The position numbers and the translations under genes were made by a program. Shown piece after piece: positions 368 to 24,649 of a stretch of 64,000 bases of DNA; the stretch's first letter is position 1, and each line of letters begins with the position of its first letter. Location of the stretch: contig NC_015556.1 in NCBI RefSeq assembly GCF_000213805.1, positions 4,231,001 through 4,295,000 of the forward strand. Direction: 5' to 3'. The notes beneath the pieces were generated by a model, which made no database searches, was not told where the DNA came from, and was given only the letters and a program-made list of their open reading frames with translations. The stretch comes from Pseudomonas fulva 12-X (GTDB taxonomy: Bacteria; Pseudomonadota; Gammaproteobacteria; Pseudomonadales; Pseudomonadaceae).

Positions 368-369
368 CC

Positions 370-2446: not shown

Positions 2447-2468
2447 AGCGCCGGCGCAGGCCGGCGCT
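2447..2468. terminator. Hairpin between convergent genes, possible bidirectional terminator
   Basis: AGCGCCGGC (2447-2455) and GCCGGCGCT (2460-2468) form a perfect 9-bp stem with a 4-base loop. It lies between the methyltransferase stop and the stop of the convergent gene and overlaps the latter. No T-tract follows on either side, so efficiency is uncertain. Confidence 0.5.
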
Positions 2469-3285: not shown

Positions 3286-3292
3286 CTCCAGC

Positions 3293-5128
3293 CTATTGGC
3301 GCACCTGGGCATAAGCGGCGTCGATGCCCTCTTCGAAGCTGCGCACGAAACGCGGCATGTCGAACAGTAGGGAGGTCTCTCGCCCCAGTTGCAGGCGCTG
3401 GCGCAGGTTGCGCAGGCGCTCGGGGTCGCGAGCCAGTTCGATGGCGCGCTGCTCGTAGTCGGCCAGATTCTCGGTGATCAGTTCGGGCAACTCCAGCGCG
3501 GTAAGCAGCGCGCCAGCCATGCGCGAGGCGAAGGTGCGGCCGGAACGGGTCAGCACCGGCAGCCCCATCCACAACGCGTCATTGGCCGTGGTGCCTCCAT
3601 TGAACGGATAGGCATCGAGGAACAGATCAGCCACCGTGTAGCGTGCCAGGTAGAGATCCGGCGCTACCCGAGGGGCAAACACCAGTCTGTCGGCGCTGAC
3701 GCCGTGGCGCTCGGCGCAGGCGATCAGGTTGGCCTGCGACCACTGGTTGTCGGCCAGCAGCCAGAACAGGCTATCGGGCACCGCAGCGAGGATGCGCATC
3801 CAACAGGAGAACATTTGCTCGTTGAACTTGTAGTTGTTGTTGAAGCAGCAGAAAACGAAACGATCTTCCGGCAGGCCGCACTCGCTACGCGACGGCAGTG
3901 GCGCCACCGGACGCTGACGGTCGCTGCACTGGAACACCGGCAGGTACAGCGGTTTCTCGCTGTAGAAGGGCTTTTCGTCTTCCGGAATCAGGTAGCGGTC
4001 GGCGATCACATAGTCGACGCAGGGCAGACCGGTTGGCCCGGGGAAGCCCAGGTAGGTCAGCTGCAGTGGCGCCGGGCGATAGGCCAGGATGTTCGGCCGC
4101 GCCCCTGACGTCAGTCCCTGCAGGTCGACCAGGATGTCGATCTCTTGCTGGCGGATCAGTTGCGCGGCACTGGCGTCATCGAGCCCGCCGATCGGCATGA
4201 AGTGATCCATGGCCGCCTTCACCCGCGCTCGCAGCGCCGAGCCATCCTCGCGACTCCAGCAGAAGCCGTAGACCTCGAAGCGCTCGCGGTCGAGCAGCTC
4301 GAACAACTCGACAGTCAGCAGCGACACCGCATGCAAACAGAAATCTGAGGACAGGAAGGCAATCCGCAGCTTGGTATGGGCATAGCCCTTCGGCGGCGCC
4401 AGCAGGGCGACCCGCTGGTCGACTCGCTCACTGACGAAATGCATGGCCGTAGCCAGTTGCAGCCCGGGATCGTCACTGGCCGACAGCATCGCCAAGGGCG
4501 AAGTGGATTTGAGCAGGTCACCGCGCGACAGCCCGGCCGTCGAGACGAACACCGGCCACTGGCACTGTTTCTGGCGCAAGTGCACCCAATGCTGGATCAC
4601 CTTGGGCTGGTCGGGCTCGGCTTGCAGACTGGCCAGCAGTTTCTGCTCGGCCTCCTGCAGCTTGCGCACCTCTTCCATCAGCCGGCCCATGCTGTTGAGC
4701 ACCATGACGTAGAGGTCGTGGTTCAGATCAGGCGCTACCAGCGGGTGATCGAGCATCGACTGCCAGATGACCAGGGCGTTTTCCGCACGGCCCTGGCGCT
4801 CGATCACCGCGCCCAGGTTGAACCAGGCCTGGACGAAATCCGGCTTGCGAACGATTGCCGCTCGGTAGGCCTGCTCCGCGGCCGGCAACTGCTCCAGCTG
4901 CGCCAGAGTCACGCCCAGGTTGAACTGCACGATGTAATCGGCACTCGAGCTGCAATGCTGCAACCAGGTCTGGTAGAGCCGCACCACATCGGCCGGTCGA
5001 CCGGCATGGCCTAAACGCTCGGCCACGGCAATCAATTGCATGGGTTCGAGTGCGGCCTGCTCGGAAAACTGCAGCGCGGTGAGCAGTACCAGATCGAGAT
5101 TCTGACTTTCCAGCGGATTTTCAGACAT
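3293..5128 (-). CDS. TPR plus GT41 (OGT/SPINDLY-like) protein O-glycosyltransferase, putative
   Basis: In this 611-residue protein the N-terminal ~190 residues are helical with at least two clear TPR units ('FNLGVTLAQLEQLPAAEQAY', 'WFNLGAVIERQGRAENALVI'). From about residue 265 the sequence follows the O-GlcNAc transferase catalytic region: 'LRIAFLSSDFCLHAVSLL' (keeps the His equivalent to human OGT H498), 'DLQGLTSGARPNILAYRPAP', 'QLTYLGFPGPTG', 'FCCFNNNYKFNEQMFSCW' (keeps the UDP-contacting Lys) and 'FNGGTTANDALWMGLPVLT'. In the last motif the His of human 'NGHTTGMD' is Gly, so the donor may not be UDP-GlcNAc. Family members modify Ser/Thr of cytoplasmic proteins. Its neighbour encodes a protein with on the order of a thousand Thr/Ser in repeats, an obvious candidate acceptor (inference). 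The gene starts 87 bases after the giant gene ends, same strand. Confidence 0.9.
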   Translation of the reverse strand: MSENPLESQNLDLVLLTALQFSEQAALEPMQLIAVAERLGHAGRPADVVRLYQTWLQHCSSSADYIVQFNLGVTLAQLEQLPAAEQAYRAAIVRKPDFVQAWFNLGAVIERQGRAENALVIWQSMLDHPLVAPDLNHDLYVMVLNSMGRLMEEVRKLQEAEQKLLASLQAEPDQPKVIQHWVHLRQKQCQWPVFVSTAGLSRGDLLKSTSPLAMLSASDDPGLQLATAMHFVSERVDQRVALLAPPKGYAHTKLRIAFLSSDFCLHAVSLLTVELFELLDRERFEVYGFCWSREDGSALRARVKAAMDHFMPIGGLDDASAAQLIRQQEIDILVDLQGLTSGARPNILAYRPAPLQLTYLGFPGPTGLPCVDYVIADRYLIPEDEKPFYSEKPLYLPVFQCSDRQRPVAPLPSRSECGLPEDRFVFCCFNNNYKFNEQMFSCWMRILAAVPDSLFWLLADNQWSQANLIACAERHGVSADRLVFAPRVAPDLYLARYTVADLFLDAYPFNGGTTANDALWMGLPVLTRSGRTFASRMAGALLTALELPELITENLADYEQRAIELARDPERLRNLRQRLQLGRETSLLFDMPRFVRSFEEGIDAAYAQVRQ

Positions 5129-5215: not shown

Positions 5216-8200
5216 TCAGGAGTAGAAACTGGTGTGCACGTTGCTGGCAACCAGCAACTGGATATCGCCGTCGTTGTACACCTCGTAGCTGGTGCCGTCG
5301 ACCTTGACGGTGCCGGCAGCCTGCCACTGATCGGCCGAACCGGCGATCTGCACGCTGTCATTGGCATCGCCATTGACGATCAGCTGCACCGGCTGCGAAG
5401 CCCCCAGACCGCTGGTGTCGACCAGCCCGGTCTGACCGAACTGGCTGACGCTCTCGGCATCGAGTTTCAGCTTGCTGGCTGTACCACCATCGTTGCCGAG
5501 ATCGATCCGGCTCAGGCTGTGCTCGCTGACCGACTCGGGCTTGAGCGTGGTCAGGTCGAGCGTCTGGGTCGGCGCATCGCTGCTGCGGAACCAGGCGTCG
5601 ACGATGCTGTGGACCTGACCGTCGACGGTCTCGTAGCTGCCAGTCAGGCCAATCCAGTTGCCGTTGTTCAGCTCGCTGCTCGCCTGCGAACCCAGATTGA
5701 TGCTGGCGATACCCAGGTTCGACAGGCCATAAAGCTCGTCGGCCTGGCTGACGCCATCCTGGTTTGCATCGACCCAGATGCGCAACGAGGCGAAGGCATC
5801 GTCACTGGCATCGATACGCCCATCCTTATTGCTATCCAGCTCGGCCAGGGCCTCGAAACCGTTCTTGGCTTTGCTGCCGTCAGCCAGGGTGGTCGCAGTA
5901 CCGAACAGCTCGCCACCGTCGTTGATGATGCCATCGCCGTTGCGGTCGAGCGCCAGCATGCCATCGCCTTTGCCAACCCAGCCGGTGGTATCGAGATCGC
6001 CGTCACCGTCGATGTCGAACTGAGTACCAGCCCTCCAGCTCAAGGTCTGCGCACCGTCGCCATTGAGATCGAGGATCAGCGGCGAGGTGGTTATCTCGGC
6101 CCGCTGCTCGCTGCTCATGGCCGCCAGTTGCGCCGCCGTGAAGGCGTCAGCCTGTGCCATGGTCAGAAGGCTCAACTGATCGGTGGTCAGTGCCGGGATA
6201 TCCGCCACATCGATGGCACGCAGTTGCGCCGTGCTCAATGCGGCGAAGTCAGCCGACTCGATGGCGCCGATCTGCGCCGAGGACAGCGCGACGATGTCGG
6301 CCGTTTCCAGGGCAGCGATCTGCGCACTGCTCATTGCCGCGATCTGGGTCAGGGTCAGCGCCTTGACCTGGGCCGTGGTCAAGGCCACCACCTGATCAGT
6401 GCTCAGCGCCTGGATCTGAGCCGCAGTCAGCGACGCCAGGTCGGTGTTCTGCATGGCCTGGATCTGCGTGGTGGTCAGCGCCTGCAGAGCGGTGTTGGTC
6501 AGAGCCGCGACCTGTTCGGTGGTCAGGCCGTAGACCTGCGCAGCAGTCAGTGCCTGCACCTGGGCGGTGGTCAGCGCCTGGATCTGATCGGTACTCAGCG
6601 CCGCCAGGTCGGAGATCTGCATGGCCTGGATCTGCGCCGTGGTCAGTGCCTGCAGATCGTCCAGTGCCATCGCGTGGAACTGGGCCGTGGTCAGCGCCAC
6701 GATCTGCGCCGTGGTCAGTGCCTGCACCTGGGCGGTGGTCAGCGCCACGATCTGCTCGGTGCTCAGGGCCGCCAGATCGGAGCCCTGGATGGCCTGGACC
6801 TGCGCCGTGCTCAGGGCCGCCAGATCGGCGGTTTCCATCGCCGCGAACTGCTCGCTGGTCAGGGCCACGATCTGCGCCGTGGTCAGAGCCTGAACCTGGG
6901 CAGTCGTCAGCGCCACCACCTGGGCAGTGGTCAGCGAAGCGACATCGACCCCCTGCATGGCTGCCACCTGCTCGGTAGTCAGCGCCTGCAACTGGGCGAT
7001 GGTCAGCTTGGACACCTGCTCGGTGGTGAGCTTGACGATCTGCTCGGTGGTCAGCGCTTCGACCTGGGCGGTGGTCAATACCTGCAGTTGTTCGGTACTG
7101 AGCAGCGCCAGATCGCTGGCATCGAGGGCACGAATCTGCGCCGTGGTCAGGGCAACCAGGTCCTGGGTTTCCAGCGCTTCGACCTGGGCACTGCTCAGGC
7201 CCTTGATCTGCTCGGTAGTCAAGGCCTGGAACTGGTCGCTGGTCAGAGCACGGACCTGAGCCGTGGTGAAGGCTGCCAGATCGCGGGTCTCCATGGCCTG
7301 CAGCTGGGTAGTAGTCAACGCCTGCACCTGAGCGGTGGTCAGCGCTGCGGCCTGGGCCGTGGTCAGGCCAACGATTGCCGAGGTATTCAGCTTGGCTACA
7401 TCAGCCACCTCCATGGCCACCAGTTGCGCAGTGCTGAGCGCAGCCATCTGAGCGGAGCCCAGCGCCTCGGCCTGGGCCGTGGTCAGGGCAACAATCTGCG
7501 CCGTAGTCAGCGCCGCCACATCGGAGGTCTTCAGCGCCGCGATCTGCGCCGTCGTCATCTCGGTGAAATCGGCGACTTCCAGCGCTGCAACCTGAGCACT
7601 GGTCAGCGCCTGGATCTGCTGCGTGGTCAGCGCCTTGACCTGATCGCTGCCCAGGGCAACGATCTGCGCCGTGGTCAACGCCGCCAGGTCGGCGGTATTA
7701 AGCGCCACGAGCTGCGCCGTGGTCAGAGCCGCAACCTGCGCCGTGGTGAGGGCAGCAGCTTGCTCGGCGCTCAGGCCTTGCAGGGTGGTCGTGGTGAGCG
7801 CGACCAGGTCTTCGGTTTCCAGGCGGGTCAGCTGCGCCGTGCTCAACGCTGCCAGTTGCCCCGAAGTGAGTGCACCTGCCTGCTCGCTGGTCAGGGCGAC
7901 GATCTGCACCGTGGTCAGCCTGGCCACGTCGCGCGTTTGCAGCGCGGCGATCTGCTCGGTGCTGAGCAAGGCGAAGTCGGCCGTTTCCAGCGCCGGAATC
8001 TGATCGGTGCTCAACGCGACGATCTGCGCCGTGGTCAGCGCCTTGACCTGATCACTGGTCAGTGCGGCGATCTGCGCCGTGCTCAAGGCCGCGAGGTCGC
8101 GAGTTTCCATGGCCTGGATCTGGGCGGTGGTCAGCGCCGCCAGGTCGGCGGTTTCCATGGCCAGGAACTGAGCCGTGGTCAACGCCTGGATCTGCGCGGT

Positions 8201-11200
8201 GGTCAGCGCCGCGACCTGAGCGGTGGTCAGCGCGACGATCTGCGCGGTGGTCAGGCCGGAGATATCGGCCGTCTCGATCGCACGGATCTGCGTGGTGCTC
8301 AGCGCTGCCAGGTCGACGGTTTCAAGCTCGGCCAGTTGCGCCTTGGTCAACGCCTGGATCTGCTCGTTGGTCAGTGCCTGCACCTGCGCCGTGGTCAGGG
8401 CGACGATCTGCGCCGAGGTCAGCGCCGCGACGTCAGCCGCCTCCAGCCCGGAGACCTGTGCCGTGGTCAGCGCCTGGATATCAGCAGTCTCCAGTGCAGC
8501 GACCTGCGCTGTAGTCAGAGCCTGCAACTGATCGATGCTCAGTGCCCGCACCTGGGCGGTCGTCAGTGCCACCACCTGAGCGGTGCTCAGGGCAGCGATC
8601 TGCGACAGCTGCAGACCAGCCAACTGAGTGCTGCTGAGTAGCGCCAGGTCGGCGGTTTCCAGCGCACGCACCTGTGCGGTCGTCAGCGAACCGATCTGAT
8701 CCAGCGTGATGGCCTGCACCTGGGCCGAAGTCAGCTGCGGAATCACGCTGGTGGACAGCGCGGCCAGCGACTGGCCATCGAGGGCTGCAATCTGCGCCGT
8801 GGTTAGGTTGATCACTTGATTGGCCGTCAGCGCCGCCACCTGGGCAGTGGACAACAGCTGAATCTGGTCGGCGGTGAGGGCAGCGATATCAGCGGTTTCC
8901 ATCAACGCGATCTGCGCCGTGGAAAGAGCCGAAATCTGCTCGAATACCAGGGCCCTTACCTGAGCCGTAGTCAGCGATACCAGTTGAGCCGAGCTGAGCG
9001 AGTGGATGGCAGCGGTGCTCAGCGCGGCCACCTGAGCGGCGGTCAGGCTGGACAGCTGGCCGGTGCTCAAGGCAGCGACCTGCACGGTGCTCAGTGCCTG
9101 CACCTGCTCTTCGGTCAGCGCTGCAATGTCCGCCGTGCTCATCGCTTCGATCTGCGCGGTGCTCAGGCGAGCGATCTGCGCCGTGGAGAACTCGGCGAAG
9201 CGATCCGGCGTCAGGGCCACGATTTGCGCCGTGGTCAGGGCCGCCACCTGGGCCGTGGTCAGCACACCGACCTGCTCCAAAGTCAGGGCGGCGACATCGG
9301 CGGTTTCCAGTACACGTATTTGGGCCGTGGAGAGCGCGGCGATCTGCTCGTTGGTCAAGGCCACGATCTGCGCCGTGGTCAATGCCACGATCTGCTCGTT
9401 GGTCAGCGCCAGCAGATCCTCGGTCTGGATCGCACTGACCTGATCGGCGCCCAGGGCGGCCAGATCGGCGGTTTCCATGGCGCGGATCTGAGCCGTGGTC
9501 AAGGCAATCACCTGGTCAGCCGTCAGCGCGGCGGCCTGGGCGGTGGTCAGCCCCTGAATCTGCGCGGCGGTCAGCGCCTCGATCTGCGCCGTGCTCAGGG
9601 CTGCGATGTGGCTGCTGCTCAGCGCAGCCAGGTCGACGACCTCGAGCGCACGAATCTGCGCGGTGCTTAGCGCGGCGAGCTGGCCATTGGTCAGCGCGGC
9701 AGCCTGGGCGGTGGTCAGCGCAACCAGCTGGGCGTTGCTCAGCGCGGCGAAGTCCTGGCTTTCCAGCGCGGCCACCTGGGCGGTGGTCAATGCCTGGATC
9801 TGCGCGGTGGTCAGCGCCTGCACCTGCGCGGTAGTGAGTGCCTGTACCTGGCTGGAAGTCAGCGCGGCGAGATCCTGGGTCTCCAGGCTACGAACCACAC
9901 GCGTACTCCAAGCGGCAACCTGTTCAGTTGTGAACGACGGTACGGTGCTAGGGGTCAGCGAGTTTACGAGCTCCTGATCCGCCGCCTCCAGCGCTTGGGG
10001 ATTCATGGCTGCGTACTGCTCGCCGTTGAGCGCCGCCAATTGCGCGCTGCTTAGCGCAGTGGCTTGCTCGGAGGTCAACCCAGCCAGTTGCTCGGGTGTC
10101 ATCGCCGCGAAGTCGGTCACCTCGAGGGCGGCCACCTGGGCGGTGGTCAAGGCAGCAACCTGGGCCAGCGACAGCGAGGCGACCTGGGCGGTGCTGAGGC
10201 CGACGATGGCAGCCGTGGACAAAGCAGCCAGATCAGCGGTTTCCAGACTGCCCAGTTGGTCGAGCCCCAGTGCCGCGATCTGCGTGGCGGTAAGTGCGGC
10301 AGCCTGCAAGGTGGTCAGTGCGGCGATCTGCACCTCGGACAGGGTCGCGATATCGGCAATTTCCAGTACGGCCACTTGCGCCGTGGTCAGCACCGCCACC
10401 TGAGCAGCGGACAGCTGTTCGATCTGGGCAGTGGTCAGCGCCACCACTTGCGCCGTGGTCAGCGCCGCCACCTGAGCGGTGGTCAGACCGGCCACCTGAT
10501 CCTGGGTCAGCGCCGCGATGTCAGCGGTTTCCAGTGCACGGATCTGCGCCGAGTTGAATGCCGCCAGGTCAGCGACCTCCAGCGACGCCACCTGCTCGGT
10601 GCCTAGGGCAACAATCTGGGCGGTGGTCAGGGCAGCAGTCTGCACGCTGGTCAGCGCGACGATCTGCTCGGTACCAAGCGCTACGATGTCTGCCGTTTCC
10701 AGAGCACGGATCTGCGCCGTGCTCAGGGCCGCGACCTGGTCACCCGTCAGCGCATGCACCTGGGCGGTGGTCATGGCGACGATCTGCGCCGTGCTCAGGC
10801 CCTGCAGGTCGCCACTCTGGATGGCAGCGACCTGGGTGGTGGTCAGCGCAGCGATCTGGCCAGTGGTCAGCGCCGCGACTTGCGCGCTGGTCAGGGCGAC
10901 GATCTGCGGCTGGGTCAGGGCAACCAGGTCAGCCGTTTCCAGGGCGCGGATCTGCGTCGTGGTCAGGGCCGCCAGGTCATCGGTCTGCAGGGCCGCAACC
11001 TGCGCGCTGGTCAGCGCAACGACCTGGGCCGTGCTCAGCGCAGCGACCTGGGCAGTGGTCAGGGCGACGACCTGAGCGGTGCTCAGGGCCTGGATGTTGG
11101 CGGTGGACAGCGTACTGACCTGGCCAGTACCCAGGGCGGCGATCTGCTCGGCACCCAGCGCACGGATTTGTCCCGTACTCAGGGCCTGCAGCTGCAGGTT

Positions 11201-14200
11201 GCTGAGAGCAGCCAGATCGGCGCTTTCGATGGCCGCTACCTGTGTGGCAGTCAGGGCCGACACCTGGGCAGTGGTCAGCTTGGCGATCTGGGCACTGGTC
11301 AGGGCAGCGATCTGCTCGACCGTCATGGCAGCCAGATCGGCGGTTTCCATCGCAACGATCTGCGCGGTGGTCAGTGCCGCGATATCGACCGCCTCCAGAG
11401 CGGCAACCTGGCCAGTGGTCAAGGCGATGATCTGCGCCGTGGTCAGCGCCTGGACCTGCGCCGTGCTCAGCGCAGCCAGCTGATCGCTGGTCAGTGCGGC
11501 GACATCAACGGTTTCCAGCGCGCGCACCTGGGCAGTGCCCAGCGCGGCGATCTGCGACGGGCTCAGCGCGCGGATCTGCGCGGTGGTCAGTGCGACCAGC
11601 TGTGCAGAACTCATGCCTTGTAGGTCGGCAAGTTCCAGCTCGGCGACCTGTGCCGTGGTCAGTGCGGCCACCTGGGCAGTGGTCAGCGCGGCCACCTGCG
11701 CCGGGTTAAGGGCAACGATCTGATCGGCACTCAGGACGGCCAGGTCCGCCGTTTCCAGCGCGGCGACCTGCGCCGTGGTAAGAGCCGAGACTTGCGCCGT
11801 GGTCAGCGCAGCCACCTGGTCGGAGGTCAGACTCGGAATCAGCAAGGCGCTGATGGCCGCCAGGTCGACGGTTTCCAAGGCAACGATCTGGTCGACCGTC
11901 AGTGCCGCCAGCTGGGTCGCTTTCAACGCCGCGACCTGGGCACTGTTAAGCGCGACGATCTGGGCGGCGCTCAGAGCGGCCACATCCGCCGTTTCCAGAG
12001 ACTGGATCTGCGCCGAGGTCAGCGCGGCGACCTGCGCCGTGCTCAGCGACTCCACCTGCGCGGTGGTCAGAGCCACCAGTTGGGCGCTGGTCAGCGCCTG
12101 GATCTGCGCCGTGGTCAGTTTGTTGACCTGGTTGGCGCTGAGCGCCGCCAGGTCGACGGTTTCGATAGCCTTGACCTGAGCGGCAGTGAGCGAGCGCAGC
12201 TGTGCACTGCTCAGCGCAGCCAGTTGTGCCGAACTCATGGCGGCGATCTGGGCAGTACCCAGAGCAGCCAGATCGACGTTCTCCAGCGCAGCCACTTGGC
12301 TCGGCGCCAGGGCGGCGACCTGCGCCGTGGTCAGCGCTGCCGCCTGGGCCGTGGTCAGCGCCACCAGTTGGGCACTGCTAAGGCCTGTCAAATCGACGGC
12401 ATCGATGGCACGGATCTGCGTACTGGTAAGCGCCTGCAGCGCAGCAGTAGTGAGCGCGGCTAGTTGATCGCTGCCCAGTGCAACGACCTGCGCCGTGGTC
12501 AGCGCTGCTGCCTGAGCAGTAGTCAATGCGGCGATCTGGACCGCCTGCAGCGCAGCGACATCGGCAGTTTCCAGCTTGGCGATCTGGCTAGGGCTGAGCG
12601 CCACCAGGTCAGCGGTTTCCAGGGCAGCCACCTGGGCGGTGGTCAGAGCCTGCAGTTGCGCGCTGGTCAGCGCCGCCACCTGGGCGGTAGTCAGTGCCAC
12701 GATCTGGTCCGTCGTCAGGGCCGCCAGATCGACGGTTTCCATTGCCACCAACTGAGCGGTGGTCAGCGCCTGCAGGTCGTCCAGGGCGAGGGCCGCCACC
12801 TGGGCGGTGGTCAGCGCCACGATCTGCGCATTGCTCAGCGCCTGGATCTGCGCAGTGGTGAGCGCAGCCAGTTGATCGGCCTTGAGCGCCACCAAATCAG
12901 CGGTCTCGATAGCGCGTACTTGCGCGGTAGTCAGCGCGGCGATCTGGTTGACGCTTAGCGCCTGCACCTGATCGGAGCTCAGAGCCACGATCTGAGCCGT
13001 GCTCAGAGCACGCAGGTCGACGGTTTCCAGCGCCGCGATCTGTCCGGTGGTCAGTTTGCCGATCTGCGTCGTGCTCAGGGCAGCAACCTGCGCGGTGGTC
13101 AGGGCCGCAATCTGGGCATCGGTCAGCGCCGCCAGGTCGGCGGTTTCCAGCGCACGGATCTGCGTCGCGTTCAGCGCTACCAGGTCAACCAACTCGAGTG
13201 CCGCGACCTGAGCAGTAGTCAACGCGACGATCTGCTCGGTGCTCAGCGCGGCGACCTGGGCGGTGGTCAGTGCCTGGATCTGCTCGGCCGACAGGGCGGC
13301 GAGGTCGGCGGTTTCCAGCGCACGGATCTGCGTCGTAGTGAGGGCTGGCACCTGATCGAGCGTCAGCGCCTGCACCTGAGTGCTGGTCAGCGCCACGATC
13401 TGTGCGGTGGTCAGGCGAACCAGATCGGAGGTCTGCAGAGATGCGATCTGCGCCGTCGGCAGGCTGGCGATCTGCGCGGTAGTCAGCGCGGTCGGTTGCG
13501 AGCCGCTGAGGGCATAGACCTGCTCCTGGCTGAGCGCTGCGAGATCGGCGGTTTCCAGCGCCCCGATCTGGGTGCTGGTCAGCTGAGTGATCTGCGCCGT
13601 GGTCAGGGCCTGAATCTGCTCGGTGGTCAGCGCGACGATCTGCGCCGTGCTGAGGGTACGCAAGTCGGCACTTTCCAAGGCAGCAACCTGGGTCTGGGTC
13701 AGGCTGGCGACCTGCGCGGTGCTCAGGGCGGCAATCTGCGCCGTGGTCAGGGCCTGGATCTGCGCAGTGGTCATGGCCGCCAAATCGGCGGTTTCCAGCG
13801 CGCGTACCTGCAGCGTGGACAACGCTTGAATCTGACTGCTGGTCAGCGCAGCGACCTGCTGGCTGGTCAGGTCGACGATCTGTGCCGCGGTCAAGGCCTG
13901 GACTTGCGCAGAGCTCAGAGCGGCAACTTGTTGAGTGGTGAGTGCGACCAGATCCTCGGATTGCAGCGCACGCAATTGCGTGCTGCTCAGCCCGACCAGA
14001 TCGCCCACTTCGATGGCTGCGACCTGGGCAGTGGTCAGTGCGACGATTTGCGCGGTACTCAGCGCGGCCAATTGGGCCTGGCTCAGGCCGGCGATCTGTT
14101 CGGTAGTCAATGCTTCCAGATCATCGGTCGCCAGCGCACGTACCTGGGCGGTACTCAGGCCAGCCAACTGCTCGACGCTCAGGGCGCGCACCTGATCGGT

Positions 14201-17200
14201 GGTCAGCGCGACGATCTGCGCCGTACTCAGGGCCTCGAGCTGGCGGGTCGAGAGGGTTGCGATACGATCAGTGGCGATGGCAGCCAAGTCGGCGGTTTCC
14301 AGCGCCCGCACCTGTGCCGTGCTCAGCGCAGCCACTTGATCGAGGGTCAGCGCGGCGACCTGAGCGGTGGTCAGCGCAACGATCTGCGCGGAGCTCAGCG
14401 CGGCAACATCTCCAGCTTCCAGCGCAGCCACCTGGGTGGTGGTCAGCGCGGCCACCTGGGCCACCTTGAGCGCAGCGATTTGAGCGGTACTCAGCGCCTG
14501 CAACTGGTCGGTGCTCAGGACGACGAGATCTTCAGTCTCGATAGCGGCGACCTGGGCGGCACTGAGTGCCTGCAGTTGCTCGGCGGACAGCACCTGTACC
14601 TGCGCGCTGCTCAAGGCGGCGACTTGCGCCGTGGTCAGCGCGGCGACCTGCGCCGTGCTGATGCCAGCCACTTGCGTGGCACTAAGCGCCGCGACGTCTT
14701 CGGTATCCAGGGCGCGGATCTGCGCGGTGCTGAGCGCTTCGAGCTGGCCGGCGCTGAGGGCCGCGACCTGCTCTGAACTGAGCGCGGAGATGCGGGAGTT
14801 GCTCATCGCCGCCAGGTCACCAGCCTCGATGGCCTGAACCTGAGCGGTGCTGAGGGCGACCACCTGCTCGGTAGTCAGCGCGGCGACTTGGGCGGACGAC
14901 AGTGCAATGACCTGAGCGCTGCTGAGCCCGGCCAGACTAGCGGTGGACAATGCGGCCACCTGGGAAACGGTCAGGGCGGAAACCTGATCAGGGCTCAGCG
15001 CAGCCACTTGCGCCGAAGACAGCGCGGCAACCCCGCTGGTGGTGAGGCGCGACAGGTCTGTCGTCTCCATGGCTGCCAGTTGTTCGGTACTCAGGGCCGC
15101 AATCTGGATGCTGGTCAGGCCACGAACCTGGGCCTGGGTCAGGGCGACAATCTGCTCGGTGCTCAAAACTGCCAGGTCTTCGGTCTCGATGGCGGCGATC
15201 TGAGCGGAACTCAGCGCGGCAATCTGCTGGGTGCTGAGTGCAGCGATCTGGGCGGTGGTCAAACCGGCGATGGTGGCCGGCGCGAGCGCGGCCAGATCCA
15301 GAGCTTCGAAGGCAGCGATCTGCTCGGTGCTCAATACGGCCATCTGCGAGGCGGTGAGCGCCGGCACCTGATCTTCAGTCAGGGCTGCAATTTGCGCGGT
15401 GCTCAGAGCCATGATCTGGTCGGTTGTCAGGCCAGAGATGGTGGTGCGACTAAGCGCCGCCAGATCGACGGCATCGAGCGCACGAATCTGCTCGGTAGTC
15501 AGGGCCGCCAGTTGCGCCGAGTTGAGCGAAACCACCTGATTTTCGGTGAGAGCGGCGATCTGGGCAGTGCCTAGGGCGCGGATGTCGCTGGTATCAAGGG
15601 CGGCGAGTTGCGCACTGCTCAGGGACGAGATCTGATCTACACTCAGTACCGCCACCTGATCACTGCTCAGCGCGGCGATCTGGGCGGTGCTGAATATGCC
15701 GATATCCTCGACCTCCAGGGCGACGATCTGATCGCTGTTCAGCACGGCGATCTGGGCGGTGCTCAGGGCGGCGACCTGGGCCACGCTGAGGGCCTGGATC
15801 TGCTCCGCGCTCAGGGCCCCTACCTGGGAGGTACCCAGGCTGCGGATAACCGCGGTCGACAGCCTTTGCAGATCGGTTGGCTCGATGGCTGCGAACTGGA
15901 TACTGCTCAAGGCCGCCACTTGGGCGGTACCGAGCGCTGCAAACTGCTCATTAGTCAGAGCAACGATTTGCTCGGTAGTGAGGGCGGCCAGATCCTGGCT
16001 ATCCAGGGCGGCGACCTGGGCGTTACTGAGCGCCTGAATCTGCTCAGTGGTAAGCGCCGCTACCTGGCTGCTGTCGAGCGCCTTGATGCTGGCCGTGGAC
16101 AGCGCCATCAGATCACCCAGTTCGAGAGCGGCGACCTGATCGCTGCTCAGGGCGGCAATCTGCGTGGTGCTCAGGGCAGCCACCTGGGCGGAGCTGAGCG
16201 CCTGAATCTGTTCAGCGTTCAGGACGCGCAGGTCGACGGTTTCAAGTGCGCGGACTTGCGCCGTGGTCAACACTGCAAGCTGATCAAGGCTCAGGGCGGA
16301 GACCTGATCGGAGCCCAGTGCAACGATCTGCGAGGTTGTCAGCGCAGCAAGCTGGGCCGGCCTGAGGGCCAGTAATTGCTCCTGGCTGAGTGCGGCGACG
16401 TCAATGGTATCCAGCGCAACGATCTGCGCGGTGCCAAGCGCAGCGATCTGGTCGCTGGTCAAGGCCGCGACCTGATCGCTGCTCAGGGCTTTGATGGCAG
16501 CAGGGGTCAATTGTTGGAGGTCGGTCACCTCGATCGCAGCGACCTGCTCGGTACTCAGCAGACCAAGTTGTGTGGTGCTCAGGGCACGGATCTGCGCGCT
16601 GGTCAGTGCGGCGATCATCTCGCTGGTCAGTCCCTGCAGCTGGTTGCTGAGCAGGGCGGCGATACCGGTGGTGGAAATAGCGGCGAAGTCAGCCGGCTCG
16701 AGCGCAGCGATCTGGCTGACGGACAGGGCGCGGATCTGTGTGGTGGTCAGGGATGCGACCTGGGCAGTTGTCAGGGCTGCAAGTTGCTCTTCATCCAGCG
16801 CCTGCAGTTGCCCCGTGGTGAGCACGCGGAAATTGGCGAGCGAGAGCGCAGCGATATCCTCTGGCTCCAGAGCGGAGATTTGCGTGCTGGTCAGGCTAGC
16901 AATCTGCAGGGAACCGAGCGCAGCTATCTGGGCGCTACTCAGGGCGGTGATCTGCTCCTGGCTGAGCGCACGCAGGTCATCCGTCTCAAGGGCGGCGATC
17001 TGAGCATTTCTCAGAGCAGCCAATTGCGCAGTGGTCAGCTCGGCCACCTGGACGCTGGTCAGAGCGCGAATGGCCAGGGTCGACATAGCCACCAGATCTT
17101 CGGTCTGCAGGGCAGCTATCTGCTCAGGCGTCATACCGGCGATCTGCTGAGTGCTGAGGGCCGCAACCTGTGCACTGCTTAAAGCCGTGATCTGGGCGGT

Positions 17201-20200
17201 ATCGAGTGCAGCCAGGTCGACCACATCGAGCGCACGAATCTGGGCGGTGCTCAGGGCAGCAACCTGCGCCGTGCTCAGGGCAGCGACCTGAACGTTGGTC
17301 AGGCTGACGATGGCTGCGGTACTAAGCGCCGCAAGGTCATCGCTGCCAAGCGCGGCGATCTGCTCGGTCAGCAGTTTGGAGACTTGCGCCGTGGTGAGGG
17401 CCGCTATCTGGGCGGAACTGAGGCTGGCAATCTGTGCCGTACTCAACTGCCGCAGGTCGACCGTCTCGATGGCCCGAATCTGTGCGATCGTCAGGGCTTT
17501 AACTTGGTCGGTGCTCAGGGCAACGAACTGGGCTGTGGTCAGGGCCACGATATCCTCAGTCTGCAGGGCACGAATCTGCGCCGAGCCAAGAGCCGCGAGC
17601 TGCTCTGCGCTCATGGCTCGGAAATCTTCGGAGCCAAGCGCGACGATCTGGGCAGTCGTCAGGGCGGCGACTTGGGCACTGTCGAGCGCAGCGATCTGCT
17701 TGCTGGTCAATGCCACCATCTGGGCCGAACTAAAGGCCGCCAGTTGTGCGGTACTCAATGCCTGAATCTGCGCGGTGCTCAGGGCCACTATATCGGTGGT
17801 TTCCAAGGCAGCGACCTGAGCAGCGCTCAACGCGGCCAGTTGCTCGGTGCCAAGGGCAGCAACCTGTGCGGAAGCGAGTGCTTTGATCTGAATCGTAGTC
17901 AGTGCCTGCAACTGCTCGGTGGTCAGTGCCAGCATCTGAGCCGTGCTCAGCGATTCCAGTTGAACGACGCTCAGATTGGCGACCGCCGCGGTACTGAGCG
18001 CACTCAAATCGGAGGCTTCCAGCGCGCGCAACTGGGCAGTGCTCAGCGACGCGGCCTGAATTCTGGTCAACGCGGAGAACTGCTCGGAGGTCAATGCCGC
18101 GATTTGCGCCGTGCTGAGCACACGCAGGTCGGCCACTTCGATGGCCACGATCTGCACGGTGGTCAGCGCCGCAACCTGGGCAGTGGTCAGCGCAGCTACC
18201 TGCGAAGACGTCAGGCCAGTAATCACACTGGCGGAGAGCGCCTGCAGATCGGCTGTTTCGAAGGCGCGGACCTGCGCCGTGGACATGGCCGCAACTTGAA
18301 CAGAGCTCAGGGCTGCCGCATGGGCGGTGCTCCAGGCAGCGATCTGAGCAGTCGTCAGCGAACGCACGGCGGTGGTGGTCAAGGCGCCGATATCGCGTGC
18401 CACCTGCTGCTCATCGCTAAGCGGCGAGCTGAGCGCAGCAATTTGCGCTGTGGTCATGGCCACCAACTGCGGAATGGTCAGAACCTCGACCTGGGAAGCA
18501 GTCAGCGCCGATACCTGAGCGGTGGTCATCGCCCGAATATCTGCAGTCTCGACAGCCATGATCTGGGCATTGGTCAGGCTCTGCACTTGACTGACGCCAA
18601 GGCTAGCGATCTGGGCGGTAGTCATGCCGGCAATCACTGCAGTGGACAATGCAGCGAGGTCGGCGATCTCCAGCGCTACCGTCTGTACCGTGGTCAACGC
18701 CGCCACCTGAGCGGAAGACAGTGCGGCAGCCTGGAGCGTGGTCAGCGCCTGGATCTGATCGGTGGTCAAACGGGCCATTTGCGCGGCGCTGAGACCACGA
18801 ATCGCCTGAGCGGTCAGCGCAGCGAATTGCGTATCGTCAAGGGCAGTGATCTGCGCGGGCGTGAGTGCCGCGACCTGGGCCGAGCTCAGGGCAGCGACTT
18901 GCTGCAGGTCGAAGGCGGCGAGCTGCGCACTGCTCAGCCCACGGAAATCGCTGGCGTCGATCGCAACGATCTGCGCGGTGCTCAGAGCGGCTAGCTGCGT
19001 CTCGGAGAGTGCAGAGATCTGCGAAGAGCTCATGCTTTTTATGGCGGCAGTGGATAGCCCTGCCAAATCACCGGCGTCAATAGCATTAACCTGTGCAGTA
19101 CTCAGCGAGGAGATCTGGGCAATGGTGAGCGCGCCGATTTGCGCGGCGCTGAGCAGCGCCATGTCGGCTGTAGACAGCCCCTGTAGGTCAGCCACATCGA
19201 GCCTGGCGATCTGCGCGGTGGTCAGCGCCTGCACCTGAGCATCAGTCAGGGCTGCCACCTGAGCGCTGGTCAGGCCGGAGATGACAGCGGCGGATATCGC
19301 GGCCAGATCTTCAGTCGCCAGCGCGGCGACCTGGTCGGTAGTCAGTGCAGTCAGCTGCGCAGACTTCAGTACAGCAGCCTGTGCGGTAGTCAGCGCGATA
19401 AGCTGATCATCGCTGAGCGCACGAATCTGAGCCGGGGTCAGCCCGGCGATCGCACTGGAGGAAAGCAGCGGGATGTTGTCATCATCGATGGCTTGGATCT
19501 GGGCAGTGGTCAGCCCGGCGAGCTGCGCTGAGGTCAACGCGCCGAGCTGGCCGGCATCCAGTGCCGCGATTCGGGCCGTACCCAATGCGGCGACATCGGC
19601 GACCTCCATGGCGCGAATCTGGGCGGTGGTCATGGCGGCCACCTGGTCGGCCGTCAGAACCGCTACTTGCGCTGTGGTCAGGCCGGGGATGGCGGCACCA
19701 CTGATCGCCGCGAAGTCGCTCGACTCGATGGCCTGTACAGACGCAGTGCTCAGAGCACCCAGCTGACTGAGCGTCAGGCGGGAGACCTGGACAGAGCTCA
19801 GGGCGGCGATCTGCTCGGTACTCAGAGCACGCACCTGAGCGGTTGTCATAGCCCCGATAATTGAAGCGGACAGGCCAGGAATATCGGCCACTTCGATGGC
19901 GGCAATCTGCGCGGTGGTGAAGGCGCCCAGCTGGGCAGCGGTCAAACCGGCAAGCTGGGCCGAGTCGAGCGCCACGATCTGCGCAGTGGTCAAGGCTTTG
20001 ACATCGGATGTGTCGAGACGGCCGACCTGAGCGGCGCTCAGTGACTGGATCTGCGCAATGCTCAATGAGGCGACCTGAGCGGTAGTCAGGCCGGAAATAT
20101 TCACCGCGGAGATGGAGGAAACATCTAGCGCCTGCAGTTGTTCAGTGCTCAGCGCAGCCAGTTGTGCGACCGTGAGCGCACCAATCTGACTGGCAGTCAG

Positions 20201-21178
20201 GGCATCCACCTGTTCGGTGGTCAGGGCAGTGATCTGGGATGTCTTGAGCGCACCAATTACCTGCGAGCCAAGCGCAGCGAAATCACTGGCCTCGATGGCC
20301 TGCACCTGAGTACTACCGAGTCCGGCGAACTGCGCCGCGGTCAATGCTCCAATCTGATCACTACCGAGTGCAACCAACTGGGCAGTGTTGAAGGCGGCCA
20401 CATCGGCCGTGTCGAGACGGGCTATCTGCCCAGTAGTGAACGCCTTCACTTGATCCGTGCTTAGCGCCGCAATCTGCGCAGTGGTGAAACCGGCAATCAC
20501 GGAGGCGGAGATTGCCGCCACATCGACTGTTTCCAGCGCCTGAAGCTGAGCCGTGGTCAGGCTTGCCAACTGGCCACTACTCAAACGGCTGACTTGGTTA
20601 GTGGTCAGCGCCTCGACTTGAGCAGTGGTCAGGCCAGCGATCTGCTGGTTGGTCAGCGCGGTAACCGCAGCGTTGCTGAGGGCAGACACGTCGGTACCGA
20701 GAGCAGCCAGCTTGGACGGCGTCAGCGCGCGAATCTGGGCAGTGCTCAACACCGCGACCTGACTGGCATCCAACGCCGCAAGCTGGTCAGAACCCAGCGC
20801 CGCGAAATCAACGGACTCCATGCGCTGCAATTGCGCAGTGGTGAGGGCAGCGGCCTGGCTAGTGGTCAGAGCAGCGGCCTGAACAGGGGTCAGCGCAACG
20901 ATCTGACCAGTCGTGAGGACGGCGGTCTGTGAAGGCGTCAGGGCGGCAATCTGAGCAGTAGTCAACGCAGCGAGATCTACCACCTGCATCGCCTGCAATT
21001 GGCTGTCGCTGAATGCCTGCAGGTTATCACTGGTGAGCACGCGCACCTGCGCAGTGGTCAGCGCTACAACCTGCGCAGTAGTCATACCGGCCACGTCTTC
21101 GGTGGTCAGGGCGGCGATCTGATCGGTCGAAAGTGCGGCGACTTGGGCGGTGGTCAGGCCAGTGAAAATGCTGCTCAT
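5216..21178 (-). CDS. Giant octapeptide-repeat protein with C-terminal calcium-binding region, probable type I secretion substrate
   Basis: A single uninterrupted frame of 5320 codons. After MSSIFTG the protein enters octads of consensus L-[TS]-T-A-Q-[VI]-x-A at once and stays in them to about residue 5029 (about 625 copies). Acidic octads (L-E-T-A-D-L-A-A type) recur every 5 or 7 units. From residue 5032 the composition changes: 'SPLILDLNGDG', 'FDIDGDGDLDTTGW', 'LDRNGDGIINDGGELFG', 'ELDSNKDGRID' and 'WVDANQDGVSQADE' are Asp/Asn-Gly calcium loops common near the C-terminus of large type I-secreted proteins. The end, 'VKVDGTSYEVYNDGDIQLLV', resembles uncleaved type I export tails. There is no Sec signal peptide and no LapA-like N-terminal retention domain. 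ATG 21178 has a weak AGG nine bases upstream. The adjacent adaptor and channel support type I secretion. Function (surface fibre, adhesin, matrix protein) is inferred; the repeat has no family I can name. Confidence 0.93.
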   Translation of the reverse strand: MSSIFTGLTTAQVAALSTDQIAALTTEDVAGMTTAQVVALTTAQVRVLTSDNLQAFSDSQLQAMQVVDLAALTTAQIAALTPSQTAVLTTGQIVALTPVQAAALTTSQAAALTTAQLQRMESVDFAALGSDQLAALDASQVAVLSTAQIRALTPSKLAALGTDVSALSNAAVTALTNQQIAGLTTAQVEALTTNQVSRLSSGQLASLTTAQLQALETVDVAAISASVIAGFTTAQIAALSTDQVKAFTTGQIARLDTADVAAFNTAQLVALGSDQIGALTAAQFAGLGSTQVQAIEASDFAALGSQVIGALKTSQITALTTEQVDALTASQIGALTVAQLAALSTEQLQALDVSSISAVNISGLTTAQVASLSIAQIQSLSAAQVGRLDTSDVKALTTAQIVALDSAQLAGLTAAQLGAFTTAQIAAIEVADIPGLSASIIGAMTTAQVRALSTEQIAALSSVQVSRLTLSQLGALSTASVQAIESSDFAAISGAAIPGLTTAQVAVLTADQVAAMTTAQIRAMEVADVAALGTARIAALDAGQLGALTSAQLAGLTTAQIQAIDDDNIPLLSSSAIAGLTPAQIRALSDDQLIALTTAQAAVLKSAQLTALTTDQVAALATEDLAAISAAVISGLTSAQVAALTDAQVQALTTAQIARLDVADLQGLSTADMALLSAAQIGALTIAQISSLSTAQVNAIDAGDLAGLSTAAIKSMSSSQISALSETQLAALSTAQIVAIDASDFRGLSSAQLAAFDLQQVAALSSAQVAALTPAQITALDDTQFAALTAQAIRGLSAAQMARLTTDQIQALTTLQAAALSSAQVAALTTVQTVALEIADLAALSTAVIAGMTTAQIASLGVSQVQSLTNAQIMAVETADIRAMTTAQVSALTASQVEVLTIPQLVAMTTAQIAALSSPLSDEQQVARDIGALTTTAVRSLTTAQIAAWSTAHAAALSSVQVAAMSTAQVRAFETADLQALSASVITGLTSSQVAALTTAQVAALTTVQIVAIEVADLRVLSTAQIAALTSEQFSALTRIQAASLSTAQLRALEASDLSALSTAAVANLSVVQLESLSTAQMLALTTEQLQALTTIQIKALASAQVAALGTEQLAALSAAQVAALETTDIVALSTAQIQALSTAQLAAFSSAQMVALTSKQIAALDSAQVAALTTAQIVALGSEDFRAMSAEQLAALGSAQIRALQTEDIVALTTAQFVALSTDQVKALTIAQIRAIETVDLRQLSTAQIASLSSAQIAALTTAQVSKLLTEQIAALGSDDLAALSTAAIVSLTNVQVAALSTAQVAALSTAQIRALDVVDLAALDTAQITALSSAQVAALSTQQIAGMTPEQIAALQTEDLVAMSTLAIRALTSVQVAELTTAQLAALRNAQIAALETDDLRALSQEQITALSSAQIAALGSLQIASLTSTQISALEPEDIAALSLANFRVLTTGQLQALDEEQLAALTTAQVASLTTTQIRALSVSQIAALEPADFAAISTTGIAALLSNQLQGLTSEMIAALTSAQIRALSTTQLGLLSTEQVAAIEVTDLQQLTPAAIKALSSDQVAALTSDQIAALGTAQIVALDTIDVAALSQEQLLALRPAQLAALTTSQIVALGSDQVSALSLDQLAVLTTAQVRALETVDLRVLNAEQIQALSSAQVAALSTTQIAALSSDQVAALELGDLMALSTASIKALDSSQVAALTTEQIQALSNAQVAALDSQDLAALTTEQIVALTNEQFAALGTAQVAALSSIQFAAIEPTDLQRLSTAVIRSLGTSQVGALSAEQIQALSVAQVAALSTAQIAVLNSDQIVALEVEDIGIFSTAQIAALSSDQVAVLSVDQISSLSSAQLAALDTSDIRALGTAQIAALTENQVVSLNSAQLAALTTEQIRALDAVDLAALSRTTISGLTTDQIMALSTAQIAALTEDQVPALTASQMAVLSTEQIAAFEALDLAALAPATIAGLTTAQIAALSTQQIAALSSAQIAAIETEDLAVLSTEQIVALTQAQVRGLTSIQIAALSTEQLAAMETTDLSRLTTSGVAALSSAQVAALSPDQVSALTVSQVAALSTASLAGLSSAQVIALSSAQVAALTTEQVVALSTAQVQAIEAGDLAAMSNSRISALSSEQVAALSAGQLEALSTAQIRALDTEDVAALSATQVAGISTAQVAALTTAQVAALSSAQVQVLSAEQLQALSAAQVAAIETEDLVVLSTDQLQALSTAQIAALKVAQVAALTTTQVAALEAGDVAALSSAQIVALTTAQVAALTLDQVAALSTAQVRALETADLAAIATDRIATLSTRQLEALSTAQIVALTTDQVRALSVEQLAGLSTAQVRALATDDLEALTTEQIAGLSQAQLAALSTAQIVALTTAQVAAIEVGDLVGLSSTQLRALQSEDLVALTTQQVAALSSAQVQALTAAQIVDLTSQQVAALTSSQIQALSTLQVRALETADLAAMTTAQIQALTTAQIAALSTAQVASLTQTQVAALESADLRTLSTAQIVALTTEQIQALTTAQITQLTSTQIGALETADLAALSQEQVYALSGSQPTALTTAQIASLPTAQIASLQTSDLVRLTTAQIVALTSTQVQALTLDQVPALTTTQIRALETADLAALSAEQIQALTTAQVAALSTEQIVALTTAQVAALELVDLVALNATQIRALETADLAALTDAQIAALTTAQVAALSTTQIGKLTTGQIAALETVDLRALSTAQIVALSSDQVQALSVNQIAALTTAQVRAIETADLVALKADQLAALTTAQIQALSNAQIVALTTAQVAALALDDLQALTTAQLVAMETVDLAALTTDQIVALTTAQVAALTSAQLQALTTAQVAALETADLVALSPSQIAKLETADVAALQAVQIAALTTAQAAALTTAQVVALGSDQLAALTTAALQALTSTQIRAIDAVDLTGLSSAQLVALTTAQAAALTTAQVAALAPSQVAALENVDLAALGTAQIAAMSSAQLAALSSAQLRSLTAAQVKAIETVDLAALSANQVNKLTTAQIQALTSAQLVALTTAQVESLSTAQVAALTSAQIQSLETADVAALSAAQIVALNSAQVAALKATQLAALTVDQIVALETVDLAAISALLIPSLTSDQVAALTTAQVSALTTAQVAALETADLAVLSADQIVALNPAQVAALTTAQVAALTTAQVAELELADLQGMSSAQLVALTTAQIRALSPSQIAALGTAQVRALETVDVAALTSDQLAALSTAQVQALTTAQIIALTTGQVAALEAVDIAALTTAQIVAMETADLAAMTVEQIAALTSAQIAKLTTAQVSALTATQVAAIESADLAALSNLQLQALSTGQIRALGAEQIAALGTGQVSTLSTANIQALSTAQVVALTTAQVAALSTAQVVALTSAQVAALQTDDLAALTTTQIRALETADLVALTQPQIVALTSAQVAALTTGQIAALTTTQVAAIQSGDLQGLSTAQIVAMTTAQVHALTGDQVAALSTAQIRALETADIVALGTEQIVALTSVQTAALTTAQIVALGTEQVASLEVADLAAFNSAQIRALETADIAALTQDQVAGLTTAQVAALTTAQVVALTTAQIEQLSAAQVAVLTTAQVAVLEIADIATLSEVQIAALTTLQAAALTATQIAALGLDQLGSLETADLAALSTAAIVGLSTAQVASLSLAQVAALTTAQVAALEVTDFAAMTPEQLAGLTSEQATALSSAQLAALNGEQYAAMNPQALEAADQELVNSLTPSTVPSFTTEQVAAWSTRVVRSLETQDLAALTSSQVQALTTAQVQALTTAQIQALTTAQVAALESQDFAALSNAQLVALTTAQAAALTNGQLAALSTAQIRALEVVDLAALSSSHIAALSTAQIEALTAAQIQGLTTAQAAALTADQVIALTTAQIRAMETADLAALGADQVSAIQTEDLLALTNEQIVALTTAQIVALTNEQIAALSTAQIRVLETADVAALTLEQVGVLTTAQVAALTTAQIVALTPDRFAEFSTAQIARLSTAQIEAMSTADIAALTEEQVQALSTVQVAALSTGQLSSLTAAQVAALSTAAIHSLSSAQLVSLTTAQVRALVFEQISALSTAQIALMETADIAALTADQIQLLSTAQVAALTANQVINLTTAQIAALDGQSLAALSTSVIPQLTSAQVQAITLDQIGSLTTAQVRALETADLALLSSTQLAGLQLSQIAALSTAQVVALTTAQVRALSIDQLQALTTAQVAALETADIQALTTAQVSGLEAADVAALTSAQIVALTTAQVQALTNEQIQALTKAQLAELETVDLAALSTTQIRAIETADISGLTTAQIVALTTAQVAALTTAQIQALTTAQFLAMETADLAALTTAQIQAMETRDLAALSTAQIAALTSDQVKALTTAQIVALSTDQIPALETADFALLSTEQIAALQTRDVARLTTVQIVALTSEQAGALTSGQLAALSTAQLTRLETEDLVALTTTTLQGLSAEQAAALTTAQVAALTTAQLVALNTADLAALTTAQIVALGSDQVKALTTQQIQALTSAQVAALEVADFTEMTTAQIAALKTSDVAALTTAQIVALTTAQAEALGSAQMAALSTAQLVAMEVADVAKLNTSAIVGLTTAQAAALTTAQVQALTTTQLQAMETRDLAAFTTAQVRALTSDQFQALTTEQIKGLSSAQVEALETQDLVALTTAQIRALDASDLALLSTEQLQVLTTAQVEALTTEQIVKLTTEQVSKLTIAQLQALTTEQVAAMQGVDVASLTTAQVVALTTAQVQALTTAQIVALTSEQFAAMETADLAALSTAQVQAIQGSDLAALSTEQIVALTTAQVQALTTAQIVALTTAQFHAMALDDLQALTTAQIQAMQISDLAALSTDQIQALTTAQVQALTAAQVYGLTTEQVAALTNTALQALTTTQIQAMQNTDLASLTAAQIQALSTDQVVALTTAQVKALTLTQIAAMSSAQIAALETADIVALSSAQIGAIESADFAALSTAQLRAIDVADIPALTTDQLSLLTMAQADAFTAAQLAAMSSEQRAEITTSPLILDLNGDGAQTLSWRAGTQFDIDGDGDLDTTGWVGKGDGMLALDRNGDGIINDGGELFGTATTLADGSKAKNGFEALAELDSNKDGRIDASDDAFASLRIWVDANQDGVSQADELYGLSNLGIASINLGSQASSELNNGNWIGLTGSYETVDGQVHSIVDAWFRSSDAPTQTLDLTTLKPESVSEHSLSRIDLGNDGGTASKLKLDAESVSQFGQTGLVDTSGLGASQPVQLIVNGDANDSVQIAGSADQWQAAGTVKVDGTSYEVYNDGDIQLLVASNVHTSFYS
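6092..21160 (-). repeat. Array of about 625 coding 24-bp repeats (octapeptide), grouped in 120- and 168-bp higher-order units
   Basis: Every 24 bases encode one octad. Synonymous codons differ widely between copies (on + one reads ggtcagcgc, ggtcaaggc, ggtcagggc, ggtgagtgc at equivalent places), so copies are old yet the protein pattern is kept. Copies toward low coordinates (protein C-terminal half) look more uniform (LTTAQ) than those near 21 kb. Irregular points: a 7-residue unit near protein residue 160 (LGTDVSA), a 5-residue unit (VNISG) near residue 360, and two Trp-containing non-canonical stretches near 18.3-18.44 kb and 9.88-10.03 kb. Confidence 0.95.
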
Positions 21179-21489: not shown

Positions 21490-22260
<771 letters not shown>

Positions 22261-22349
22261 GCTGAAACCCTCTCTAACCGGCTGCGCCGCACATCCGCGG
22301 CGTTGCGTCTGAAGCGGCTCGCTCGCTTGGCGAGGACTTCAGCGCGTGC

Positions 22350-23087: not shown

Positions 23088-23125
23088 CTGCAGCACCTTT
23101 GTTGTTCAGTCAGCCGTAGCCGTAA

Positions 23126-24612: not shown

Positions 24613-24649
24613 CACCTGCTCCACAAAATCGTTGGGCGAAAGGGCGAAC

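Follow-up and report, generated by a model that had tools for sequence, protein, structure and literature searches.

A 64,000-nucleotide stretch of Pseudomonas fulva 12-X (contig NC_015556.1, positions 4,231,001 to 4,295,000; the whole stretch is called the window here) carries on its minus strand a giant gene whose product consists mainly of eight-residue repeats, or octads. The reading that we favor, and consider probable, is that this chain of 620 units folds as one screw with ∼3.4 units per turn, is glycosylated in the cytosol by an OGT-like enzyme, and is exported by type I secretion to form a surface rod. A fuller proposal, rated a little below an even chance, is that the product represents an undescribed bacterial fiber, namely, an alpha-screw of ∼180 turns on a lattice of 17 octads per 5 turns, coated by OGT, exported by the type I route, and bearing a Ca2+ cap without clip-and-link chemistry. 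The lattice, a neighboring gene of glycosyltransferase family 41 (GT41), and the cap lacking the reactive Asp are the new points; the name of the repeat family was already known.

The giant open reading frame (ORF; 5216 to 21178, minus strand) runs from ATG to stop through 5320 codons and encodes an acidic protein (435 Asp plus Glu residues and 129 Lys plus Arg residues) without Cys. A single frame of this length had been claimed in an earlier note on this DNA (the original prediction), correctly but with no mention of the strand; when translated from base 5216, the plus strand contains 22 stops. The octad array (6095 to 21157, minus strand; residues 8 to 5028) was assigned by a Pfam match and by tiling. 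Some 625 octads had been proposed, with few exceptions to their phase; the count was close, with 620 octads in 624 places, and the phase has three breaks that divide the array into blocks of 19, 23, 70, and 512 places. Short irregular stretches part these blocks, all before about residue 935, and residues 5029 to 5320 are nonrepeat. The octads share the consensus L-[TS]-[TS]-A-[QD]-[IVL]-A-A, with frequencies at positions 1 to 8 of 85% L, 71% T/S, 69% T/S, 50% A, 73% Q (18% D), 90% I/V/L, 46% A, and 75% A; these values derive from a first tiling of 622 octads (488 distinct), a few of which were spurious and lay in the C-terminal domain. Amino acid identity was 0.39 at a lag of 8 residues compared with ∼0.04 to 0.12 at lags not divisible by 8. 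The closest named array was that of Pseudomonas punonensis (94% identity in the best-matching segment of a 500-residue query), from a list that may leave out the window's own genome. Comparison with the arrays of loci L036 or L038, which are 72 to 73% identical, detected only 1- to 3-residue indels after about residue 180; no octad had been gained or lost there, and copy number looks frozen, which is unusual for a tandem repeat.

The original prediction had considered the family unnamed and had specified that a strong match to a described repeat family would count against it. Such a match was found: Pfam family PF20080 (ALTTAQ_rpt) matches the array with an E value of 2.7e-245, and scores of 682 to 792 bits in three pieces of the protein, against a curated cutoff of 26.4 bits, place the array in this family. 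The claim of a novel family, therefore, fails. The Pfam model describes the same repeat but spans 38 residues, or about five octads, and no fold, turn number, or function was found there. Similar octads, of the LTPEQIAA type and likewise consecutive, also occur in PDB chain 9zem, "HeliScrew4", which matched over 110 residues (residues 782 to 891 of the query piece; E value, 9.4e-17) and which is, to judge from its name, a designed protein; it has 120 residues compared with the 5320 of the window protein. In the open-licence literature, preprints excluded, no paper was found for ALTTAQ, PF20080, or HeliScrew, for octad-type repeat terms, or for the combination of OGT, type I secretion, and adhesin, and titles and abstracts on octapeptide repeats and solenoids concerned almost exclusively prions and amyloid, with one on InaZ. 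As far as could be found, the ALTTAQ family has been described in name only. The models LRR_EndoS, CAAP1, HTH_25, and Sigma70_r4_2 also exceeded their Pfam cutoffs on pieces of the array; these models are unrelated and present a hazard of spurious annotation.

The fold was predicted with AlphaFold2 on 30 octads (residues 3053 to 3292), and the assignment of the array as an alpha-screw derives from this segment. Using a family alignment of 30 rows, the model had a predicted local distance difference test score (pLDDT) of 95.9 and a predicted template modeling score of 0.86; 239 of the 240 residues had a pLDDT of at least 90, and there were 30 helices of 5 to 6 residues, one per octad. Without an alignment, a similar pattern of helices was obtained over most of the model at a pLDDT of 69.1. 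Candidate rows were the best ungapped 240-residue matches from any array, with at most 6 per protein and 110 chosen, a procedure that favors rows in the same register; 100 chosen rows aligned with gaps (320 columns) were left unused, and the 30 sequences used were aligned gap free. A short helix-turn per octad within a continuous alpha superhelix, as had been suggested, is well supported by this model. The all-helical character of the model also disfavors the beta-folds of RTX, ice-nucleation, and hemagglutinin repeats, from which the array had been distinguished. The array is thus predicted to form one continuous screw of short helices, a superhelix of the ARM/mesothelin type. In a Foldseek search, the best PDB match of the octad model was mesothelin (E value, 3.9e-4). 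Mesothelin is described as a solenoid in which short helices, in repeats of 27 to 37 residues, follow a right-handed spiral (PMC10035497). Mesothelin/stereocilin and ARM-type solenoids are the nearest known folds, and mesothelin gave the top Foldseek matches. Chain 9zem was not among the Foldseek matches listed, from a library (entries to April 2026) that may not include it.

BFVD also yielded four matches to the octad model with E values of <1e-3 (best, 7.1e-6 at 15% identity), all of them predicted proteins from uncultured Caudovirales phages, and solenoids of this kind may be present in phages. By sequence, however, no relative was detected: 29 stretches were matched when viral contigs were scanned, and tblastn identified none of them as a relative. 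Absence from the VIA tables does not exclude other solenoids.

The C terminus and the adjoining genes bear on export. Residues 5033 to 5195 (5594 to 6082, minus strand) match the self-processing module (SPM) of FrpC of Neisseria meningitidis (PDB 6sjw; PMC7078468) over 163 residues with an E value of 5.3e-41. The FrpC domain is described as folding on Ca2+, cleaving the Asp414-Pro415 bond, and linking the Asp to lysines (PMC7078468), and replacement of the reactive Asp by Ala is reported to block anhydride formation (PMC12538545). The window homologue retains the EF-hand-like Ca2+ loops and both Trp residues but has Ser in the position of the Asp that precedes the first Pro. Wherever the motif was found, in 24 of 54 array ORFs, this position held Ser or Thr; many of the remaining ORFs are truncated where a contig or locus ends, and some complete ones end without an SPM motif (e.g., L058 and L065). 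Given that both the Ca2+ loops and the Trp pair persist in the window protein and the reactive Asp is replaced, the domain is predicted from these residues to be a Ca2+-folded cap in which clip-and-link chemistry is not expected. The remaining tail (5216 to 5593, minus strand), which ends in ...NDGDIQLLVASNV..., is a putative type I secretion signal. A TolC-type outer membrane channel (PF02321 OEP; 364 to 1692, plus strand) and the 3′ end of an HlyD-like periplasmic adaptor (2 to 367, plus strand; whole gene at 9045 to 10367 of locus L031) lie nearby, together with an ABC transporter outside the window (7238 to 9040 of L031); the adaptor and the transporter were named from their sequences. We infer from this neighborhood and from the tail that the adjacent exporter uses a C-terminal secretion signal. 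The ABC-HlyD-TolC genes, the lack of Cys, the SPM-type C terminus, and the fusion of arrays to export-related domains (TPS, PATR, and hemolysin type, below) in other proteins make export of the giant protein likely. Relatives of the ABC protein were detected in 10 of 51 loci with limited flanks. Five array proteins, chosen from 120 listed homologues, were scanned for other domains: a TPS secretion domain was present in P0131, passenger-associated transport repeats (PATR) in P0238, a hemolysin-type Ca-binding-related domain in P0150, a serralysin C-terminal domain together with a bacterial Ig-like domain in P0174, and G8 together with CEMIP beta-helix domains in P0206. In the window protein, no TPS domain was found in the pieces scanned, which included the N-terminal 1000 residues, and no match to the RTX nonapeptide (PF00353) was found in the C-terminal pieces.

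The gene 87 bp downstream of the giant gene (3293 to 5128, minus strand) encodes TPR repeats and a PF13844 catalytic domain with a UDP site (E value, 4.3e-76) and so belongs to the GT41 OGT enzymes. Its best PDB relative was XcOGT (E value, 4.9e-93), with aligned His, Lys, and TTAxDALW residues. It is overlapped by 20 bp by a 281-amino-acid gene without a significant Pfam match (2467 to 3312, minus strand). This second family has 1278 homologues; among the 120 listed, the only Pfam domain was PF13844, present in two (P0024 and P0040) on the same chain. Because these two proteins join it to PF13844, the 281-amino-acid protein is probably a partner of GT41.

Linkage of GT41 to the array was examined in 47 loci, of which 41 contained an array ORF with 40 or more octads; flanking sequence reached at least 3 kb on one side in 35 and at least 3 kb downstream in 21; L036 to L038 and L058/L072 are close relatives within these counts. 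GT41 was present within 3 kb in 12 of the 35 assessable loci. In 10 of the 21 loci with sufficient downstream sequence, the match started 89 to 436 bp downstream on the same strand, an arrangement seen in Pseudomonas, Burkholderiales, Rhizobium, and others. GT41 was also directly downstream of the array in relatives G003 and G021, upstream in L045 and L062, and at 7 kb in L073. Other glycosyltransferases occupied its place in L066 and L067, the 281-amino-acid partner was found alone in L046, and some loci had nothing of the kind (e.g., L068, in which the next gene is RdgC). These data make glycosylation of the array likely. A different reading would keep the same alpha-screw rod but have GT41 modify another target, such as flagellin, the exporter, or another exoprotein, its presence reflecting linkage only. 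The 23 of 35 assessable loci with no GT41 within 3 kb fit this reading, as does the wide distribution of the enzyme: among 276 genomes of the class, GT41 was present in 60, arrays in 5, and the two together in 4, sharing a contig in G000 and G261. It is opposed by the same-strand arrangement, repeated in several bacterial groups, and by co-occurrence among 57 relatives (own genome included), in which GT41 was present in 6 genomes and arrays in 3, GT41 accompanying the array in 3 of 3 array-bearing genomes compared with 3 of 54 others. We consider a separate target rather unlikely and retain the array as the favored substrate. Among 14 named control genomes, PF20080 was found only in Caulobacter vibrioides, which also has GT41 and is a possible laboratory model.

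HMW1 and HMW1C provide the nearest working analogy, which is not one of membership. HMW1 is described as a very large exoprotein served by a dedicated glycosyltransferase of the GT41 type, HMW1C, in the cytosol (PMC3983070 and PMC3012730). The cognate GT41 gene stands beside that of the exoprotein, as in the window, but HMW1 is N-glycosylated and uses two-partner secretion, whereas the window has type I exporter genes, an XcOGT-like enzyme, and a different shaft. Giant adhesins of the RTX/LapA type likewise have thousands of repeat residues, type I exporter genes, and a Ca2+-binding C-terminal domain. RTX adhesins are described as extending on beta-sandwich repeats (PMC7493085), whereas the window shaft is predicted to be alpha and, in the pieces scanned, lacks RTX nonapeptides.

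The turn of the predicted screw was sought by treating each octad as one step and analyzing residue classes at fixed octad positions spectrally along the window array. Acidic residues at position 4 gave a peak at 0.2939 per octad with a power of 44.1 (maximum in 2000 shuffles, 14.6), and Asp at position 5 gave a peak at 0.4128 with a power of 39.7 (maximum, 15.5). Basic residues at position 7 (0.2946; power, 16.7), Thr at position 3 (0.2947; 18.2), and Glu at position 2 (0.413; 32.6) also peaked, the largest values in 2000 shuffles being 13.4 to 15.5 for the five peaking classes; a sixth class tested, Leu at position 6, had a power of 12.2, below its shuffle maximum of 16.8. As 0.412 equals 1 − 2 × 0.294 under whole-octad sampling, a single fundamental of 5/17 covers both peaks. 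These statistics point to 0.294 turn per octad, which would correspond to 3.4 octads or 27 residues per turn. Octads with Asp (type LETADLAA) were spaced irregularly, by 5 (63 times), 7 (19 times), 2 (18 times), 12 (5 times), or 10 (5 times) octads in 110 of 116 cases, and after each such spacing the following Asp is no more than a tenth of a turn away from either the same face or the opposite one. In a comb scan of the window array alone, 0.4998 ranked above 0.2946.

Periodicity was then compared among arrays. Of 54 array ORFs found, 6 were dropped (four reverse-strand readings and two near-identical orthologues), and the set tested comprised the 39 of the remaining 48 that contained a block of 50 or more octads. 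The set spans several orders (Pseudomonas, Burkholderiales, Rhizobium, Hyphomicrobiales, and others), and its members are not independent, being related by descent, with several genomes giving two arrays and the Pseudomonas arrays being orthologous. Without a frequency limit, the global spectral peak fell on harmonics 1 to 4 of 0.2943 in 35 of the 39 arrays, compared with ∼3 expected from coverage of ∼7% of the axis, and it exceeded 40 shuffles in 37. The fundamental, sought only between 0.25 and 0.34, lay within 0.290 to 0.300 in 37 of 39. Angles between stripes also recurred: the offset from acidic residues at position 4 to basic residues at position 7 was 0.54 turn (R, 0.77; 27 of 36 arrays with coherence of >0.3), and that to Asp at position 5 was 0.84 turn (R, 0.72; 31 of 36 arrays), with the window's own Asp-5 weakly at 0.28. 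No conserved angle was found in 4 of 12 residue classes. The best self-similarity lag lay near a whole number of turns (34 arrays; R, 0.95) and was most commonly 17 octads (16 of 34). A second set was drawn from the 120 listed homologues of the L032 array, of which 99 lacked a usable block of at least 50 octads; among the 21 tested, mostly shorter PF20080 arrays, only 4 peaked on harmonics 1 to 4, and some peaked near 0.5 (16-residue units). Indels between orthologues gave no support for whole-turn changes, with 24 whole-octad gaps showing no phase preference (R, 0.08; 10 pairs from five arrays); they were counted as such because gaps cannot be placed unambiguously within a repeat and the pairs lack independence. 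The arrays of L047, L053, and L032 contain tandem units of 27 octads (8 turns), with identities of 0.74 to 0.90 at lags of 27 and 54.

Duplication could also produce a periodicity of this kind. In the giant gene, amino acid identity peaked at lags of 17, 7, and 10 octads. After correction for residue and position, synonymous codon identity hardly followed this pattern: it was 0.98 to 1.07 of expectation at the 42 lags tested and correlated with amino acid identity at 0.16 over lags 2 to 40. Recent duplication, therefore, does not explain the periodicity, and tandem duplication as its sole source was rejected on these near-expected values and on the presence of only 12 repeated 30-mers in the gene. 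An older event might still have left the 5/17 periodicity as the fossil of an ancestral unit of 17 octads (136 residues) rather than as the turn of a superhelix. Every harmonic of 5/17 also belongs to the harmonic series of 1/17, the preference for a lag of 17 octads and the general absence of 5/17 from the shorter PF20080 arrays would be expected of such a fossil, and codon identity was a little raised at lags 5, 7, and 17 (z values, 2.2, 2.5, and 1.9), as it was at lags 20 and 37 (z values, 2.5 and 2.7). Nevertheless, codon identity stays close to expectation at each lag, and the median power of successive harmonics declines with helical order (4.3, 3.1, 2.0, 2.1, 1.5, 1.3, 1.1, and 1.2) and not with the order of a unit. 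Moreover, a fundamental of 0.295 to 0.296 is retained in arrays with a best lag of 27 or 54, 10, or 7 octads, and the irregular spacing of Asp octads in the window fits a face and no fixed unit. We regard a fossil unit as unlikely and interpret 5/17 as the probable turn of the screw.

A cytoplasmic or nucleic acid-binding solenoid resembling TALE proteins is highly improbable: LTxxQV resembles the first helix of the TALE repeat, a similarity of local motif only, but the unit has 8 residues rather than the 33 to 35 of TALE repeats, the C terminus is of the SPM Ca2+ type, exporter genes adjoin, some relatives are fused to secreted domains, and nucleic acid binding was dropped on the strongly acidic charge.

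The favored reading, a glycosylated and exported screw, suggests the following sequence of events. The Ser/Thr-rich octad positions 2 and 3 would offer hundreds of acceptor sites, which GT41 and its small partner would modify on the unfolded chain. The ABC/HlyD/TolC exporter would then pass the chain out with its C terminus first, and Ca2+ would fold the SPM-like cap outside; as its Asp is Ser, the cap would be unable to cut or link by the known anhydride route. Octads would stack onto the cap turn by turn, helping to pull the chain out. ARM-type solenoids rise by ∼1 nm per turn, and at such a rise the finished screw of ∼182 turns would be roughly 0.18 μm long. Stripes of acidic residues, basic residues, and Asp octads at fixed angles would be likely surfaces for side-by-side packing or adhesion. 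Functions beyond that of a rod, such as adhesion, matrix, or spacing, may be envisaged.

Other genes of the window complete the locus. An S-adenosylmethionine methyltransferase gene (PF08241; 1756 to 2439, plus strand), possibly glycan modifying, lies between the 281-amino-acid gene and the TolC-type gene. Upstream of the giant gene are genes that resemble hisF, hisA, hisH, and hisB (21490 to 24651, minus strand) and an MFS transporter gene (PF07690; 24965 to 26623); tRNA-Phe (gaa) is located at 30878 to 30953 on the plus strand.

The giant exported proteins of bacteria known so far are mainly strings of beta-sandwiches or beta-helices. The shaft described here is instead predicted with high confidence to be built from alpha-helices of 5 to 6 residues, and one angular rule is common to the large arrays of several orders. 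If the reading is true, the charge stripes and sugar-bearing rows of Ser/Thr would follow fixed faces of the rod, and the turn number of a natural fold would have been read from sequence statistics alone. To our knowledge, the natural targets of bacterial OGT-type enzymes are mostly unknown, and the array is a candidate substrate for them. The C terminus would represent a self-processing module that has lost its reactive residue and persists as a Ca2+ domain. The family thus offers a testable turn number and may provide a simple modular material with eight residues per step.

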